Source of the DNA: Fodinibius salicampi
GTDB taxonomy: Bacteria > Bacteroidota > Rhodothermia > Balneolales > Balneolaceae
Direction: 5' to 3'
NCBI RefSeq assembly: GCF_039545095.1
Contig: NZ_BAABRS010000002.1
Location: forward strand, 434,001-498,000
Length of the DNA: 64,000 nt
A program made the translations under genes and the position numbers. This document shows positions 13,208-21,316 of this stretch, piece by piece. Each line of letters opens with the position of its first letter. Within the stretch, counting starts at the first letter, position 1. The notes beneath the pieces are model-generated. The model made no database searches, was not told where the DNA came from, and was given only the letters and a program-made list of their open reading frames with translations.

Positions 13208-15616
13208 TTAAGTCAGCGATTTTGCTGTTTTGACAATATCACTAAGAACGCCCGCAGCCGTCACTTCCTTACCTGCTCCGGGACCTTGGATAATTAAAGG
13301 TGTTTTGTTATAAAAATCAGAAATAATTTGAATTAGATTATCAGTGCCTCGAAGTTGCCCGATAGGGGAATCTACCGGTACTTTTTGAACACCTATTTTG
13401 ATAGTACCATTAGTTAACAGGGCAGTATGGCGGAGTGTCTTATTTTCTTCTTGTGCTTCTTGCATCCGCTGTTCCCAGTAATGATCATATTCTGCTAATC
13501 GGTTTAGAAATGTTTCTCTGTCAACATCCGCAAGCTCGTCAGGTATAAGTGATTCAACCTGTAATTCATTGCGTTCAATCTTATATCCAAGGGTTCGGGC
13601 CAGTGTCAGAAATTTTCTGGCTACATCTTCCCCGGATAGGTCGTCACGCGGATCAGGTTCTGCATATCCGAGTTCGCGTGCCTTGACGGTAGCTTTACTA
13701 AACGGTACGCCCTCTTCCAGTTGATTAAAAAGATAAGTCATGGTACCTGATGCAACTCCCGATATTTCCTGAATCTGATCACCGCTATCCAGCAACTTTT
13801 CAATAGTAGAAATAACGGGGAGGCCAGCTCCGACAGTCGTTTCATATCGGAAATAGGCATTATTTTTCTTTGCCTCGGCTTGTAACTTATCGAAAAATGA
13901 TTGTTCAAAAGTATTGGCCAGTTTGCTGGGAGTCACAACATGTATGCCGTGTGTAAAAAGTTTAGGATATAATCTTGCTACTTCTTCGCTTCCGGTAGCA
14001 TCTACAAAAATCAGGTTGTGGCGGAATGGCTGGATAAGTTTATCCAATAAAATATTCCAGTCGGTTTCTGATGCATCCGACCAGTCCAGGTCAGAATTAA
14101 TATTCAGACCCCGGTCATCCCAAAGGGCATATCGGCTGTTGCAGCTTCCCAGTAAGCGGAACTGGTGCTTGTCGGTATCCATTGTCTGGAGCTTGTTAAG
14201 TAGTGTTTGTCCAACAGCTCCGGTACCGGCAATAAAGAGATCAATCGTTGTTCGATGATGCTGCAGGTAATCATTTAACAAGCGGGCGGCGCGACGAGCT
14301 TCATCTTCTTCAAACAGGAAAGAAATAAAACGTTCATCTCTATTTCTGTTAATATGAAGCGGTCGTAGATTGTTAGAAGCTAAAAGGTTCCAAATTCGTT
14401 CGGTTAGCTGTTCATCCTGGAAGTGATTACTGAATTTTTTGACCTTATAAATATCTTTCTTCGGCTCTAGCGTTATGTCTTGCTTTTCTGCCCATTTTTG
14501 GAGCCGGTCTTTATGTTTTTCATACAGCGATTGTCGCAGTAAAAAACGGGCCGGTTCAAATGCAGAATTTCGATTATAGGAAAGTGCTTCGGAGTCGGGT
14601 TCTTCCTGCAGCCACTGTTCCAGATTTTTCAGCAAGTTGTAGCTATACTGGTCATCGGTCTGGAGGCGAATAAAAGGTCCCGTCACGGTAATTGTTTTAA
14701 AAGAACCATTAGATTTGTGCGTAGCATTAATACGAGTTCCCGGATGAGACGGATTATAACTGTTTTTAACAAGAATTGAGGTATCCTTGTCATTTAAAGG
14801 GCGAATGGTTTTGGGATGGATCACCTTGGCCCCATGAGCTGATAATTCACCAATATCAGTAAAACTGAGTTCTTCAATAGGTTCGGCAGTAGGGACCCAT
14901 CGTGGGTCAGCTGTCAGTACTCCATTTACATCGGTCCAGATTTCCAGTTGATCTGCATTAAGGGCATCAGCAACAAGTCCGGCCGTATAATCAGATCCCG
15001 ACCGCCCCAATGTAGTGATACGTTGTTGCGCATCCGAACCGATAAAACCGGTGACCACCGGAATGGCATTTGATTCCTGGAGAAATTCACGCACCAGCTT
15101 ACGGGTGGAGTCGGCCTGCACGTTCGCCTGTCCAAAGGTGGAGTCTGTTTTAATAAACTGATAAGCCTCAAAAGCCTTGCCAGGGAGTCCCTTGTTAGAA
15201 AGGGTAGCGGCAAATATATTTGCGGAAGCGCGTTCGCCAATTGATAAGATACGATCTTTCCACGCCCGAAAGTCAGAAGTTTTCAACTGCACATCATCAA
15301 TCGTTTGGCGAAGTTCTTCAAAAAGATTTAGCAGTTGTTCGCGGCGGGGATCGGTGGGGTCTGCAAGCTGATCGTACAGATCCAGATGTTTCTGCTTTAA
15401 TTTATCGATTTTGCTATCGATAGTCACAGTATCTTTATCCCCTTCCGTCAATTCAATGAGCGCATCTGTGACCGTTTCGACCGCAGAGACAACTACCACA
15501 GGCATTACCGATTTGGCACGGTCGATTACAATTTGGGTGGCCTGTTCAATAAAAGCTTTGTTCTGCAGCGAGGTACCACCAAATTTCAGGATATGTTTTG
15601 AAGAGGATTTCTTCAT
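13208..15616 (-). CDS. thrA: Bifunctional aspartokinase / homoserine dehydrogenase
   Basis: This 802-residue fusion carries the first and third steps from aspartate to homoserine. The N-terminal kinase domain opens with KFGGTSL (about 11-17) and includes TTLGRSGSDYTA. A regulatory ACT-like region covers roughly 300-450. The dehydrogenase half starts with the NAD(P)-binding loop FIAGTGAVGQT near 460 and continues through SGVASGTMTY, YAEPDPRDDLSGEDVARK and the C-terminal GPGAGKEVTAAGVLSD. It is the last gene of the SAM-controlled operon and its start overlaps the metX stop by 4 bp. The aspartate-semialdehyde dehydrogenase is not in the window. By context it could be called metL; thrA is used for the fusion architecture. 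Confidence 0.93.
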   Translation of the reverse strand: MKKSSSKHILKFGGTSLQNKAFIEQATQIVIDRAKSVMPVVVVSAVETVTDALIELTEGDKDTVTIDSKIDKLKQKHLDLYDQLADPTDPRREQLLNLFEELRQTIDDVQLKTSDFRAWKDRILSIGERASANIFAATLSNKGLPGKAFEAYQFIKTDSTFGQANVQADSTRKLVREFLQESNAIPVVTGFIGSDAQQRITTLGRSGSDYTAGLVADALNADQLEIWTDVNGVLTADPRWVPTAEPIEELSFTDIGELSAHGAKVIHPKTIRPLNDKDTSILVKNSYNPSHPGTRINATHKSNGSFKTITVTGPFIRLQTDDQYSYNLLKNLEQWLQEEPDSEALSYNRNSAFEPARFLLRQSLYEKHKDRLQKWAEKQDITLEPKKDIYKVKKFSNHFQDEQLTERIWNLLASNNLRPLHINRNRDERFISFLFEEDEARRAARLLNDYLQHHRTTIDLFIAGTGAVGQTLLNKLQTMDTDKHQFRLLGSCNSRYALWDDRGLNINSDLDWSDASETDWNILLDKLIQPFRHNLIFVDATGSEEVARLYPKLFTHGIHVVTPSKLANTFEQSFFDKLQAEAKKNNAYFRYETTVGAGLPVISTIEKLLDSGDQIQEISGVASGTMTYLFNQLEEGVPFSKATVKARELGYAEPDPRDDLSGEDVARKFLTLARTLGYKIERNELQVESLIPDELADVDRETFLNRLAEYDHYWEQRMQEAQEENKTLRHTALLTNGTIKIGVQKVPVDSPIGQLRGTDNLIQIISDFYNKTPLIIQGPGAGKEVTAAGVLSDIVKTAKSLT

Positions 15617-16671
15617 TGCTGAGGATAAATCGTCGATGTTGGTTTTTCAGTTAAAAAAGGTACCAGAATATTATTGAGTTGTTCAAATTCAATAAGAAAC
15701 GCATCGTGTCCGTGTTCTGATTGTATCAGCCGGTAACGGCCATTGGGTAACAAATCAGCCAGCTCCTTCTGCTCCTGTACCGGATAAAGCAAATCAGTAT
15801 CGATCCCTACAACCATAACCGGAATATCAATCTTACCCAGAACCTGTCTATATGAGGAGCGATTCCGAGCGATATCGTGTGAATCCATCGCTTCTGTAAG
15901 TCGAACGTATGAAACAGCATCAAAGCGTTCTACCAGCTTCTTGCCCTGGTAGTTCAAATATGATTCTACCTGGTATTGATCCGTTTCCGGTTGGGGTTCT
16001 CGTCCAAATTTGTTTTCATAATCGGCATCGGTTCTATAGCTGATCATTGCAATCATGCGGGCCAATCCAAGTCCTTCTTTGGGAGGATGTTCTTCCGAGT
16101 AGTAGCCTTCTTTCCAGTTGGGATCGTTGTAAATGGCTTGTCGCTGGGCATGGCTAATTCCAATTGCCCAGGGGCTGTGAGCTTTTCCCATGCCGATGAG
16201 AACAGCTGATTGCGGTCTGTCATCCATAATGGCCCATTCCAAGGCCTGCATTCCGCCCATTGAACCACCGATTACCATCTCTATACCGGTAATTTGAAGT
16301 TCATCCATTAATCTTTGCTGCAGTCGAACCATGTCGCGTATCGTAATTGTCGGGAAGTCCGCCCGATATGGTTCGCTCGTTTCCGGGTTGATACTGGTAG
16401 GACCGCTGCTACCGTAACAGCTGCCCAATACATTGGGACAAATAATAAAATGTTGTTGGGGATCAAGTGTTTTTCCTTTACCCCAAATACCTTTAAACCA
16501 TTCATCAGCTGCCGTATTACCGGTTAACGCATGGCATACAAGTATAACATTGTCACGGGTTTTATTAAGCTCACCCCAGGTCTGGTAAGCCACTTCCGGT
16601 TTGGAAATAGCTGAACCCGATTCGGTAACAAAAGGTTCTTTAAACTTATATTGCTGTATGCCTTTACTCAT
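15613..16671 (-). CDS. metX: Homoserine O-acetyltransferase
   Basis: MetX acetylates homoserine with acetyl-CoA, committing it to methionine. The 352-residue alpha/beta-hydrolase shows VCHALTGN near residue 45, the nucleophile elbow GGSMGG (Ser137), the acid in DTDLLYP (Asp293) and the catalytic His in GHDAF (His322). The oxyanion-associated GSCYGSSGPTS is also present. Acetyl versus succinyl preference cannot be proved by reading, but the downstream use of an O-acetylhomoserine sulfhydrylase fits acetyl. It overlaps the next gene by 4 bp and lies 53 bp after the OsmC-like gene. Confidence 0.95.
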   Translation of the reverse strand: MSKGIQQYKFKEPFVTESGSAISKPEVAYQTWGELNKTRDNVILVCHALTGNTAADEWFKGIWGKGKTLDPQQHFIICPNVLGSCYGSSGPTSINPETSEPYRADFPTITIRDMVRLQQRLMDELQITGIEMVIGGSMGGMQALEWAIMDDRPQSAVLIGMGKAHSPWAIGISHAQRQAIYNDPNWKEGYYSEEHPPKEGLGLARMIAMISYRTDADYENKFGREPQPETDQYQVESYLNYQGKKLVERFDAVSYVRLTEAMDSHDIARNRSSYRQVLGKIDIPVMVVGIDTDLLYPVQEQKELADLLPNGRYRLIQSEHGHDAFLIEFEQLNNILVPFLTEKPTSTIYPQQ

Positions 16672-16724: not shown

Positions 16725-17261
16725 TTAATTAACGAAATTAATACTGCCTTGAACTGGGACGGGATTTTGTATAATGTCCAAAACCGGACAGTTTTTGAAG
16801 GAAATTTCTTTAAGCTGATTTAATTTTTCTTGATCCTTCTCATCTGTTTCAATTTCAGTCGATAATTCAACATTCTTAAAGCCTGCTCTTGCATCGTCTG
16901 ATAAATTTAGAAATCCTTGCAAATCTAAATCTCCAGTCGCTTGAACCGTAACAGACTTTACCTCTATTCCAAGTGCCAGCGCATGTGCTTTAATTACAAT
17001 TTCCTGACAGGCAGCTAATGCACCAAGAACGTATTCTACCGGACTCGCCCCCAAGTTAGTTCCGCCCAGACTTTCTGGCTCATCTGAAATAAAATGAAAA
17101 TCACGGATATTGACCTTTGATTGTAAGCCCTGTTCCAATTTTGATTCGGCTTTAAAAGTTACATCCGCATTTTTAGGGTTGCCTTTTATATCTTTGGCCA
17201 GTGTTTGTACCGCCTTGATGATATTTTTATCAAGACTGTTTTTTTCTTTAACAGTGCTCAT
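16725..17261 (-). CDS. OsmC/Ohr-family protein in the methionine operon
   Basis: The 178-residue product has the OsmC fold signature: GASPVEYVLGALAACQEI with one conserved cysteine, and KNCPVLDI with the second. OsmC/Ohr proteins are cytoplasmic thiol peroxidases. Relatives found in sulfur operons may handle persulfides or organic thiols. I chose ATG at 17261 (MSTVKEKNSLDK) rather than the in-frame start 17 codons upstream, which lies inside the gap to metY. It sits between metY and metX and shares the SAM-regulated transcript. The operon position suggests a role in protecting or handling reactive sulfur; that is inference. Confidence 0.85.
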   Translation of the reverse strand: MSTVKEKNSLDKNIIKAVQTLAKDIKGNPKNADVTFKAESKLEQGLQSKVNIRDFHFISDEPESLGGTNLGASPVEYVLGALAACQEIVIKAHALALGIEVKSVTVQATGDLDLQGFLNLSDDARAGFKNVELSTEIETDEKDQEKLNQLKEISFKNCPVLDIIQNPVPVQGSINFVN

Positions 17262-17329
17262 AAGTTGATAATAAATGTTATATATGGCCTTACAGGGATT
17301 CCTGCAAGGCACATATGATGTATTGAGTC

Positions 17330-19155
<1,826 letters not shown>

Positions 19156-19203
19156 TACCGCTTGTTATTTATGTATCAATTTCAAAAAATCATTAAATCA
19201 AAA

Positions 19204-19258
19204 AAGCCCCTTTCGAAATCTGCCGGTAGTCGTCGGGAGAAGATTTCGAAAGAGGCTT
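19204..19258 (-). terminator. SAM-riboswitch expression-platform terminator
   Basis: The arms AAGCCTCTTTCGAAATCT (minus sense, from 19258) and AGATTTCGAAAGGGGCTT (ending 19204) pair over about 18 bp with one mismatch. They are followed by a run of T on the minus strand. The hairpin lies between the aptamer and the first gene, as expected for transcription attenuation. Confidence 0.85.
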
Positions 19259-19290
19259 ATGTTAATTTTACCTTTTATGGTAACCTCTCG

Positions 19291-19402
19291 CTTATCTTCC
19301 TCCGAGCTACCGGAGCAGGATGTAGCACCTAACCTTGGCGCTAACGCACCAAGCGGTTGCTAAGGCTTCTTCGGGCCTGATCCCTCAGCCTTTCTTGATA
19401 AG
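19291..19402 (-). ncRNA. SAM-I (S-box) riboswitch aptamer
   Basis: On the minus strand the element opens with CTTATCAAGAAAGGCTGAGG and continues with GGCCCGAAGAAGCC and GCAACC. It then has GGTGCTACATCC and closes with GGAAGATAAG, which pairs with the opening CTTATC as helix P1. These are the invariant pieces of the S-box/SAM-I riboswitch, including the kink-turn and the SAM core. It precedes the five-gene methionine operon and a terminator hairpin. By the known class mechanism, high SAM should favour termination and shut down homocysteine synthesis. Confidence 0.95.
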
Positions 19403-19416
19403 ATCATTCACTAAAT

Positions 19417-19452
19417 CAAAAAAGCCCTTCGGGATTTTCCGAAGGGCTTTTT
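19417..19452 (-). terminator. Rho-independent terminator between leader ORF and riboswitch
   Basis: A stem with core CCCTTCGG/CCGAAGGG, extended by AAAAAG/CTTTTT pairs, ends in TTTTTT on the minus strand. The symmetric A/T flanks could let it work in both directions. It lies upstream of the SAM aptamer, downstream of the 26-codon leader ORF and 167 bp after the M1 peptidase stop. It may end the peptidase transcript or act as a first attenuator. Confidence 0.75.
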
Positions 19453-19466
19453 AAACTGTCTCAAGA

Positions 19467-19557
19467 ATGAAACAAATTAGTCCTTCGGATGTGTATTAGG
19501 CATACATAGCCGTATAATGCACATCCAGCAGGCAATATGTTTAATAATTTGTTTCAT
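19467..19557 (-). repeat. Long nested inverted repeat (leader hairpin)
   Basis: Outer arms ATGAAACAAATTA (minus sense, from 19557) and TAATTTGTTTCAT (ending 19467) are perfect 13-bp complements. Inner arms GGATGTGCATTA (from 19526) and TAATACACATCC (ending 19487) pair with one mismatch, extended by GGC/GCC. The stem encloses the whole small ORF, so its start codon is inside the outer helix. Confidence 0.8.
19477..19557 (-). CDS. Possible 26-residue Cys/Met-containing leader peptide
   Basis: The frame runs from ATG at 19557 to TAA at 19477. The peptide starts MKQIIKH and holds cysteines at 10, 13 and 18, methionines at 1, 12 and 19, and Trp at 11, in a hydrophobic middle (ACWMCIIRLCMP). It lies just downstream of a good promoter and upstream of a terminator and the SAM riboswitch. 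Cys and Met codons clustered in a short ORF before sulfur genes resemble amino-acid attenuator leaders. No clear Shine-Dalgarno is seen, which is common in this lineage. Whether it is translated is unknown. Confidence 0.45.
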   Translation of the reverse strand: MKQIIKHIACWMCIIRLCMPNTHPKD

Positions 19558-19578
19558 AGGTCGTTTTTAATTTCAAGC

Positions 19579-19610
19579 CTAACATAACTTATTTTCGTAA
19601 ATCTTACAAA
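19579..19610 (-). promoter_or_regulatory. Probable met-operon promoter (Bacteroidota-type)
   Basis: The minus strand has TTTG (19610-19607), a 20-nt spacer and TATGTTAG (19586-19579), one base off the TAnnTTTG consensus. It lies immediately after the M1 peptidase stop and would start transcription near 19570, so the leader ORF, terminator and riboswitch are all in the 5' UTR. Confidence 0.6.
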
Positions 19611-19618
19611 TGTAAAGA

Positions 19619-21316
19619 TCAATTGTTCCCATTGACCGACTCCTCGTTGGATATGCGCTCTGTATCAATATAGAAGTTGGGATCTGTCTTGAAATCTTTT
19701 CCTTTGTCTACCTTTGTTATTTTCCAACGGTTAGATACCGGATAGATAAAATAATAATCTCCTTTACCCTCGGCTATCTTCAGTGGCATATTGAAATGCG
19801 AAATGTCTGCTTTCCATCGGTAGTGCAGGCGATTTAGATCATCAATATAGTATTGGAAAACCGGAATGCTCGCATAATGCAGGTACTGGTCAAACAGATC
19901 ATCCAGATCTTTGCCCGACTGTTCTATAATATACTTCTCAACTTGATCAGCAGTTACAATTTGATGACGGAAATCCCGGTTGATTCCCCGGAGAATTTCT
20001 TTCCAGGTAGAATCATTGTCTACAATCTGGCGAATAGTATGGAGCATATTATGTCCTTTATAATACATGTCCCCCGACCCTTCATTATTAAGTCCGTATT
20101 GACCGGTCACGGGCTCCCGGTTCTCAATGTTAGCGCGTAATCCAATAGTGTATTCCCGTGCGGCTTCTTTTCCAAAGCGACATTCGGTATAGATAGATTC
20201 CGAATAACTGGTAAAGCCTTCATGGACCCACATATCGGCAATGTCATTGGTTGTGATATTGTTGCCCCACCATTCATGAGCAGCCTCATGGATAATGATA
20301 AAATCCCATTTAAGTCCCCAGCCGGAACCGGAAAGATTCCGGCCCATATATCCGTTTTGATATTGATTCCCATAGGCTACCGCACTCTGATGCTCCATGC
20401 CCAGGTGAGGCGTTTCTACCAGCTTAAAGCTGTCTTCATAAAAAGGATAAGGTCCAAACCAGTCTTCAAAACAGCGCATCATCGGTTTAACTTGCTGGAA
20501 TTGTTTCTTTGCTTTGTCGAGATTTTGTTCCAGAACCCAATAGCTGAGATCGAGCGTGCCGTCTTCGCCATCAAAGATTTCGCTAAAGTTTACATAATTG
20601 CCGGCATTAACGGCGATATTATAGTTATTAATGGGATTGGAAATGAACCAATGCCAAGTGGTCATGCCATTATCATGCCGAGTGGTATCTCTTAATCGAC
20701 CATTCGAGACATTTTTAATTTCATCAGGCACCGTAATATTGATGCTCATACTGTCGGGCTCGGCGGACTGGTGATCTTTATTTGGCCACCAGACGCTGGC
20801 ACCAAGTCCTTGGTTGGCAGTAGCGATCCAGGGATTGCCGAGTGAATCCTGTGCCCATATAAAGCCGCCATCCCAAGGTGGATTTTCAGCTACTTTCGGT
20901 TTTCCCTGGTAATATACGGAAAGGGTGTAAAGCGAGTCTTTTTGCAGATTATTAGGCATATTCACAAAATAAGCGTAGCTATTCTTTGCACGCTCATAGG
21001 ATAATTCTTCCCCATCCTGCTTAATCTGATCAATTTTCAAGGGGTCCTGCAGATCAACTTGCAGCCGGGCAGGTTGATCGGTGACACGATAGGTAATATT
21101 ATTATATCCACTGATCGTTGAATCTTCAGGCATAACGGCCACATTCAGATCATAATAGACCACTTCCCACCAGGCGCGCTGTGGCGTGATGGATCCCCGG
21201 AGACTGTCGGCTTGAGTAGCAAGTACGCCGGAGTTCTGAGCGGTAGCCGGCAAGGTTATGGCTGTAATAAGTAACAGTAGGAAACTGCAATACAGAACTA
21301 TAGAGATATTTTTCAT
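19619..21316 (-). CDS. Secreted M1-family zinc metallopeptidase
   Basis: The 565-residue protein has a signal peptide (about 1-27, ending ATAQ), an N-terminal beta domain and the M1 catalytic domain. The exopeptidase-like motif is HLGMEHQSA (304-312, the counterpart of GxMEN). The zinc site is HEAAH (343-347) plus Glu366 in WVHEGF. It is shorter than classical aminopeptidase N, having lost most of the C-terminal helical domain, as in many secreted Bacteroidota members. It should trim peptides in the periplasm or outside the cell. The end sits directly against the met leader promoter. Confidence 0.92.
   Translation of the reverse strand: MKNISIVLYCSFLLLLITAITLPATAQNSGVLATQADSLRGSITPQRAWWEVVYYDLNVAVMPEDSTISGYNNITYRVTDQPARLQVDLQDPLKIDQIKQDGEELSYERAKNSYAYFVNMPNNLQKDSLYTLSVYYQGKPKVAENPPWDGGFIWAQDSLGNPWIATANQGLGASVWWPNKDHQSAEPDSMSINITVPDEIKNVSNGRLRDTTRHDNGMTTWHWFISNPINNYNIAVNAGNYVNFSEIFDGEDGTLDLSYWVLEQNLDKAKKQFQQVKPMMRCFEDWFGPYPFYEDSFKLVETPHLGMEHQSAVAYGNQYQNGYMGRNLSGSGWGLKWDFIIIHEAAHEWWGNNITTNDIADMWVHEGFTSYSESIYTECRFGKEAAREYTIGLRANIENREPVTGQYGLNNEGSGDMYYKGHNMLHTIRQIVDNDSTWKEILRGINRDFRHQIVTADQVEKYIIEQSGKDLDDLFDQYLHYASIPVFQYYIDDLNRLHYRWKADISHFNMPLKIAEGKGDYYFIYPVSNRWKITKVDKGKDFKTDPNFYIDTERISNEESVNGNN

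Follow-up and report, generated by a model that had tools for sequence, protein, structure and literature searches.

Why should a met operon that carries a SAM-I riboswitch also be preceded by a short open reading frame (ORF) rich in cysteine and methionine codons and enclosed in nested hairpins? This question is raised by a locus of Fodinibius salicampi (contig NZ_BAABRS010000002.1), which lies within a stretch of 64,000 nucleotides (nt) that we analysed as a whole and refer to as the window. An initial annotation, made from the sequence alone, had suggested that the hairpin and a first terminator respond to translation of the Cys and Met codons, as an added amino-acid checkpoint in front of the SAM switch, and our analysis provides comparative and structural support for that proposal. 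Here we propose, with a probability of about 0.84, that the leader is a ribosome-mediated transcription attenuator of the trp/his type, which would read charged tRNA-Cys and tRNA-Met and act in series with the SAM-I riboswitch.

The locus is encoded on the minus strand and comprises, from 5′ to 3′, a promoter, the 26-codon Cys/Met ORF, a first terminator (terminator 1), the SAM-I riboswitch, a second terminator (terminator 2) and the met operon. The promoter (TTTG-N20-TATGTTAG, positions 19579 to 19610) is of the Bacteroidota type, for which the consensus TAnnTTTG at −12 to −5 is given in the available text of PMC9723704, and the sequence predicts a transcription start at about position 19574. 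A promoter-like TTG-N20-TAnnTT motif is found at −52 to −57 from the ATG in all 12 leaders of the genus, which speaks for a transcription start ahead of the ORF. The SAM-I (S box) aptamer (19289 to 19404) scores 78 bits with RF00162, for which the gathering score is 44.4; terminator 2 (19200 to 19257; −27.7 kcal/mol, z −6.0) constitutes its expression platform. The operon begins with a gene for a CoA-binding domain protein (18658 to 19155; PF13380), followed by metY, encoding an O-acetylhomoserine/O-acetylserine sulfhydrylase (17330 to 18646; 687.9 bits, cut-off 495.1, for TIGR01326, entitled O-acetylhomoserine aminocarboxypropyltransferase/cysteine synthase), a gene for an OsmC-like protein (16725 to 17312; PF02566), metX, encoding a homoserine O-acetyltransferase (15613 to 16671; NF001209, 413.3 bits, cut-off 331; TIGR01392, 430.3 bits, below the cut-off of 500), and a fused aspartate kinase/homoserine dehydrogenase gene of the thrA/metL type (13208 to 15616; PF00696 and PF00742; NF006959, 655.4 bits, below the cut-off of 726). 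The small CoA-binding protein (PF13380) between the SAM riboswitch and metY is present in other genera of the order as well as in the window.

Known RNA families other than SAM-I gave little at this locus. A T box as the amino-acid sensor was rejected, as no model matched: RF00162 and one tRNA were the only window matches at gathering score, and no T box was present among the Rfam matches with E ≤ 5 across positions 19200 to 19700. Other families gave weak matches only, the best after SAM being L10_leader, which extends over the ORF and terminator 1 at 31.7 bits, below its 44-bit cut-off. A mobile repeat was likewise rejected, as the long matches lie at the met leader in genomes of the genus and the other matches were short, many of them covering the terminator part alone.

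The leader ORF (19477 to 19557; MKQIIKHIACWMCIIRLCMPNTHPKD) has a conserved frame, with Cys at codons 10, 13 and 18 and Met at codons 12 and 19. Its start-codon arm, strand 1 (ATGAAACAAATTA, 19545 to 19557), forms a perfect 13-base pair (bp) helix with the 3′ part of strand 2 (TAATTTGTTTCAT, 19467 to 19479), which can instead pair with the upstream part of strand 3. Strand 2 as a whole (CCGAAGGACTAATTTGTTTCA, 19468 to 19488) overlaps the stop codon and forms the 5′ half of an antiterminator, the 3′ half of which is strand 3 (TGAGACAGTTTAAAAAGCCCTTCGG, 19439 to 19463). Strand 3 ends in GCCCTTCGG, the 5′ arm of terminator 1 (3:4; AAAAAGCCCTTCGG-AAAATC-CCGAAGGGCTTTTTT, 19418 to 19452; −22.9 kcal/mol, z −6.8), so that the CCGAAGG strand at the stop codon has the 5′ arm of the terminator as an alternative partner. 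The sequence features listed in the initial annotation are all present, namely the TTTG-N20 promoter (19610 to 19579), the 26-codon ORF with its Cys and Met positions (19557 to 19477), the 13-bp perfect outer arms over the start codon and the stop region (19557 to 19545 with 19479 to 19467), the nearly perfect inner arms and the terminator after the ORF (19452 to 19418); the decisive part that it lacked was the antiterminator, which extends over the stop codon and is in competition with the terminator.

These structures are far more stable than expected from composition. The whole leader folds at −55.7 kcal/mol, compared with a mean of −29.6 for its shuffles (z −7.3); for the hairpin of the ORF alone, z is −4.0, and none of 200 shuffles was as good in either case. 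The antiterminator is a single 50-nt hairpin (19488 to 19439; −18.0 kcal/mol, z −4.9), again unequalled in 200 shuffles. Since strand 2 pairs with either strand 1 or strand 3, and strand 3 holds the 5′ arm of the terminator, formation of the antiterminator excludes the terminator and also the 1:2 helix. The trp and his attenuators have a 1:2, 2:3, 3:4 helix layout, and the arms described here follow the same layout. The 13-bp hairpin would therefore act as the protector (1:2) helix rather than as the switch.

Within the genus, the arrangement is conserved. Terminator 1 is kept in all 12 leaders, in each of which a hairpin equivalent to the antiterminator is the energy minimum of the same stretch. 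When the outer arms were kept and the inner part was shuffled, the inner antiterminator ranked among the top 5% of its shuffles in 10 of the 12 leaders and was no better than shuffles in the other two (L003, 60/300; L004, 126/300). Pairs were counted on a codon-based alignment; a MAFFT alignment of the DNA misplaced the terminator arm by one base in some rows. Changes on both sides occur at 2 of the 11 protector pairs counted (five cells), a cell count reached by 2 of 2,000 shuffles, and the share of paired cells was reached by none, but 548 of the 2,000 shuffles reach the number of such pairs and 547 the number of types. The outer antiterminator arms show no covariation within the genus, their positions being invariant or A/G opposite U.

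The ORF carries a coding signal of its own. It is intact in all 12 genomes of the genus, with 25, 26 or 27 codons and no frame-breaking insertion or deletion, the differences in length being whole codons and the stop codon lying within strand 2. The peptides contain from five (in the window) to eight Cys and Met residues after the start (for example, MKRIQKHICRLCCMCMCMPHLQPED). Codons that differ between leaders score +1.1 by BLOSUM62 in frame 0, compared with −0.4 and −0.2 in the other frames, and their synonymous share is 23% in frame 0, compared with 12% and 11%. Stop codons interrupt frame 1 in all 12 leaders and frame 2 in two, and the periodicity of variable columns is weak (18, 14 and 21 by codon position). 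Across the 82 leaders of the order described below, Cys and Met account for 14.9% and 12.5% of residues, the script set being counted on the reading that the script selected, in many cases one with an upstream start, compared with 0.5% and 1.5% in eight proteins of the window. Codons for the amino acids that the operon serves to make are thus enriched in this short ORF.

We modelled the effect of a ribosome on these alternatives by blocking, in the 12 leaders of the genus, the part of the RNA that it would cover, in transcripts that ended with the terminator's 5′ arm. When the ribosome was placed at the first Cys codon, an antiterminator of seven pairs (five in L002) remained in all 12 leaders, whereas with the ribosome at the stop codon no antiterminator pairs were left in any of them. 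With the ribosome at the last Cys or Met codon, seven pairs formed in eight leaders and two of seven in the remaining four (L002, L003, L004 and L010), because the Cys codon is close to strand 2 there. Without a ribosome, the unfinished RNA formed no antiterminator pairs in six leaders and five to seven in the other six, including that of the window; the protector state, in which a lack of translation leads to termination, is therefore doubtful in those six. The minimum of the full-length leader of the window consists of the protector and the terminator. When the whole terminator was allowed to form, it was the energy minimum in every modelled state, that with a stalled ribosome included. The switch would therefore have to be kinetic, with the antiterminator forming first; in the species of the window, the race would be between hairpins of −18.0 kcal/mol (antiterminator) and −22.9 kcal/mol (terminator). 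In silico, then, the antiterminator and the terminator would be mutually exclusive, and a ribosome that has reached the stop codon would hide the strand that decides between them.

To place the locus in a wider context, we searched 102 genomes of the order Balneolales, each at least 85% complete, with RF00162; 94 of them matched, and all 115 SAM hits listed were examined, 108 as a script set and seven, from members of the genus, separately. By their first long downstream ORF, 21 of the 108 script loci precede metH; the other 87 precede genes that are metY or the CoA-binding gene before it (assigned by eye for L064 and L120), except for a different PLP enzyme at L051; the seven genus loci lie outside this script classification, the window's own having the CoA-binding gene and metY. 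The leader score was the count of Cys and Met per 12 codons in the best ORF of 9 to 50 codons within 250 nt upstream, with at least two Cys, and we chose five as its threshold. Scores of at least five were found at 75 of the 87 non-metH script loci and at the seven further genus loci, but at none of the 21 metH loci, where the highest score was three; the genomes are related, and these counts are not independent. All 21 genomes with a metH SAM locus carry the leader at their other SAM locus. As background, a score of at least five was reached by 6 of 2,108 random real windows from the same loci and by 47 of 5,400 shuffles. Conservation in relatives, on which the initial annotation had staked its proposal, thus extends from the ORF and arms in all 12 members of the genus to a Cys/Met ORF at 82 of 94 non-metH SAM loci, and the leader is linked to metY rather than metH.

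The 12 non-metH loci below the threshold comprise six metY loci without a leader (genomes G015, G099, G101, G103, G081 and G109), one locus with another enzyme (G058) and five with weaker Cys or Cys/Met ORFs (G026, G029, G031, G033 and G034). By locus, those without a Cys/Met leader are four of genus g5 (L104, L111, L113 and L115) together with L081, L037 and L051, the last of which is not a metY locus; these seven are possibly losses. Our detector found an intrinsic terminator between the ORF and the riboswitch in 67 of the 75 script-set leaders. Five of the other eight (L035, L067, L082, L090 and L110) look like hairpins with broken T-runs, and three, from family f4 (L042, L061 and L091), have none by eye either. 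In genus g15 of this family, the ORF ends 22 to 23 nt before the aptamer at L042, L061, L076 and L091, and no terminator lies between the ORF and the aptamer in the three of these that score at least five or in L076, the ORF of which is weak. In four further genera, the start-codon arm pairs downstream of terminator 1 in the folds (L094, L134, L106 and L131; genera g22, g4, g6 and g10), which may represent a different protector topology.

The antiterminator can be followed across the order by its pairing. In 53 of 67 leaders, the pairing between the stop-codon region and the 5′ arm of the terminator beats 95% of the leader's own shuffles (median p 0.01 over the 67), and in 14 it does not. Relative to where the stop codon ends, the helix in those 53 lies between −12 and +10 nt; in 41 of them, it starts 7 to 14 nt after the last Cys or Met codon (range 4 to 18). 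A ribosome reading the stop codon would therefore cover the helix, whereas one at most of the upstream Cys or Met codons would not. The arms themselves differ by genus (CCGAAGG/CCTTCGG in Fodinibius, CAGAGGG/CCCTCTG in g26, AGGGTTC/GAACCCT in g31 and CAGCATAGGG/CCCTGTGTTG in g13). In a permutation test with one leader from each of 20 genera, the mean self-pairing was −13.5 kcal/mol, compared with −10.4 kcal/mol for permuted partners, a value reached by none of 20,000 permutations. The genus's own partner was the best of 20 in eight genera, the mean rank was 4.2 against an expected 10.5, and g33 alone paired with itself worse than with the mean of the others (rank 13). As arms from the same genus match best, the antiterminator and terminator arms change together across genera.

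Three other explanations of the leader have to be weighed against these observations. We consider it improbable that sensing, whether of copper, sulfide, redox state or SAM, is done by the Cys/Met-rich peptide, nascent or released, acting as an arrest or metal-binding peptide while codon supply goes unread. Runs such as CCMCMCM do resemble soft-metal ligands in our judgement, and the leaders inspected combine Cys with Met; however, the order, number and spacing of these residues vary by genus and the rest of the peptides are unlike by eye, which fits codon counting better, the downstream genes serve sulfur amino acid synthesis, and the anatomy equals that of codon-reading attenuators. More unlikely still is a translation-independent RNA switch, in which the hairpin and terminator would bind a protein or ligand and the ORF would be incidental. 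The strength and stability of the hairpin would suit it, but insertions and deletions of whole codons, the advantage of frame 0 and an approximately 30-fold excess of Cys argue against an incidental ORF, and the hairpin arm sequences differ between genera, in several of which the start-codon arm pairs beyond the terminator. Least credible is the idea that the hairpin and ORF are there by chance and that the terminator is simply the 3′ end of the transcript of the M1 peptidase gene, which in the window is found upstream in the same orientation, with its end 61 nt short of the leader ATG. Against this, the upstream open frame varies within the genus (by eye, it differs from the peptidase in L006, L007, L009, L010 and L012) while the leader stays, each of the 12 genus leaders has a promoter motif ahead of its ORF, and the Cys/Met ORF, the antiterminator and their closeness to the riboswitch recur across the order.

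We therefore return to the codon-reading attenuator, which would operate as follows. When Cys and Met are plentiful, the ribosome would reach the stop codon and cover strand 2, the terminator would form and transcription would stop near position 19418. When either amino acid is short, the ribosome would stall on Cys or Met codons and leave strand 2 free to pair with strand 3 before the second arm of the terminator is made. The polymerase would then pass terminator 1 and reach the SAM riboswitch, where SAM would decide at terminator 2. If the leader is not translated, the start-codon arm may sequester strand 2, so that the terminator would form; this is the least secure of the states. The operon would be fully on only if Cys or Met charging and SAM were both low. 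MetY fixes sulfide into homocysteine, and perhaps into cysteine, which fits the sensing of both Cys and Met, whereas MetH makes Met only and its gene lacks the leader.

A further element lies between terminator 1 and the aptamer. In the window, it is a degenerate boxA-like remnant with two mismatches, merged with the T-run (19408 to 19425); relatives have GTTCTTTTGATTTAGTGAGCA, and the boxA-like word of a relative with an intact motif is GTTCTTTAA. The boxA of Escherichia coli is TGCTCTTTAACA. The core word GTTCTTT occurs within 55 nt of the aptamer at 82 of the 87 non-metH loci, 79 of these at a distance of 15 to 23 nt, and by eye at six of the seven other genus loci, but before the aptamer at none of the 21 metH loci of the order. 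It also precedes metY riboswitches of neighbours that have no leader ORF and, outside the order, some metH riboswitches (L178, L210 and L295, at 17 to 18 nt), so that the tie to metY holds within the order only. Among six relatives in which 16S leaders were sought, four gave a 16S match; three of these have GTTCTTT and the fourth GTTCTCT, with other TTCTTT words in some. The assembly that contains the window gave no match to 16S rRNA and may be incomplete or masked there.

Nus sites occur upstream of genes other than those for rRNA, according to the available text of PMC5725501, and from its sequence we would guess that the GTTCTTT element serves as a boxA, that is, as a NusB/S10 site. It is a tentative and rather doubtful extension of this guess that the leader forms a three-part control line, in which the Cys/Met-tRNA attenuator is followed by a boxA that reloads the polymerase with Nus factors after the ribosome has been left behind, and then by the SAM-I riboswitch. 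If so, the polymerase, modified by Nus factors, would escape Rho termination on its way across the long untranslated riboswitch, and the three devices would form one logic unit; in genus g15 of family f4, which has no attenuator terminator, the leader ORF would act directly on access to boxA.

Outside the order, the tandem is less regular. Among 51 SAM loci of neighbours in the class and phylum, picked among the matches listed, two (L199 and L160) scored at least five. The leader at L199 looks real from its sequence, and that at L160 was taken as chance, as two loci of the same genus that were inspected lack a leader. In the class of the genome that carries L199 (G309), the leader was found at 2 of 30 loci among the matches listed (L286 and L312), and L286 coincides with L199. 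Of 71 metY loci in named genomes, 28 showed the SAM core by text pattern, although this pattern can miss the riboswitch (L240 has an Rfam match and no pattern) and loci without it were left unjudged. A score of at least five was reached by 21 of the 28; the other seven (L234, L237, L248, L256, L265, L266 and L284) have the SAM core and no leader. Ten of the 21 leaders are of the Balneolales type and 11 are others, from records named Bacteroidetes bacterium (eight) and Ignavibacteria, Melioribacteraceae and bacterium BMS3Abin03 (one each), with ...EAMCCCCMMMCMSSREDAA as an example. All 11 other metY loci have a SAM riboswitch by Rfam. Ten of them were folded, L247 being left out, and in nine, counted without a shuffle control, GGAAGGAC or a like strand starts 33 to 46 nt upstream of a GCCCTTC terminator; the pattern found no complementary strand in L233 and, likewise without a shuffle control, found one in L286. 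Judged by these sequences, the tandem is almost general in Balneolales, and its distribution outside the order is patchy.

The trp and his attenuators share with this leader an ORF with codons for the product of the pathway, a protector, an antiterminator over the stop region and a terminator. Unlike them, the leader described here has a mixed run of Cys and Met codons and is followed by a second, ligand-binding device with a terminator of its own. Leader-peptide attenuation before amino acid operons has been noted in a flavobacterium, in the available text of PMC9723704, and leader-like small ORFs in Bacteroides, in that of PMC7366714. The cysS leader uORFC-8-2 of Rhodobacterales is likewise predicted to be a Cys-codon attenuator; it differs in standing before the gene for cysteinyl-tRNA synthetase, in having two tandem Cys codons and in that no riboswitch is mentioned in the accessible part of the source (PMC8632094). 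Leaders of Mycobacterium cys and Bifidobacterium cbs genes share Cys runs near the stop codon of an ORF ahead of sulfur genes, but have no conserved terminator, Rho being suggested instead, and again no riboswitch is mentioned in the part available (PMC1262725). The tandem attenuators of Salmonella mgtCBR (PMC3641672) and the B12 riboswitches with upstream ORFs at metE and ppe2 of Mycobacterium tuberculosis (PMC11260477) similarly combine several devices with short ORFs; their inputs differ, however, and, as far as the accessible portions of these sources go, neither places an attenuator that reads Cys/Met codons in series with a SAM riboswitch. Nothing of this kind appears in the accessible portions of PMC2965389, PMC6429828 and PMC12452182. 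Our survey of the literature covered open-licence PubMed Central and found no leader peptide in series with a SAM riboswitch.

Tandems of a T box and a SAM riboswitch have been studied before, with examples that are reportedly from Firmicutes. As described in the available text of PMC9481103, T box–SAM-I tandems resemble the present arrangement in placing a checkpoint for uncharged tRNA before SAM-I, in standing ahead of met genes including metX and metY, and in their logic, tRNA uncharged and not SAM; such pairs also appear in PMC12452182, the accessible part of which places them under Bacillota. The amino-acid sensor differs, being a T box in those tandems and a translated leader peptide here, where Cys as well as Met codons would be read. 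The same portion of PMC9481103 gives two tandems in the T box-first order and seven in the reverse order, compared with 82 leader loci here. A classical attenuator and a classical riboswitch are each known, and it is their arrangement in series that we did not find in the open-licence papers searched, with a codon-reading peptide attenuator placed before the riboswitch for a downstream metabolite of the same pathway. The arrangement comes with a built-in control, in that the 21 genomes that lack the leader at their metH SAM locus carry it at the other, and this makes it testable why an operon that makes homocysteine from sulfide would watch Cys, Met and SAM, whereas a gene that makes Met only would watch SAM alone.
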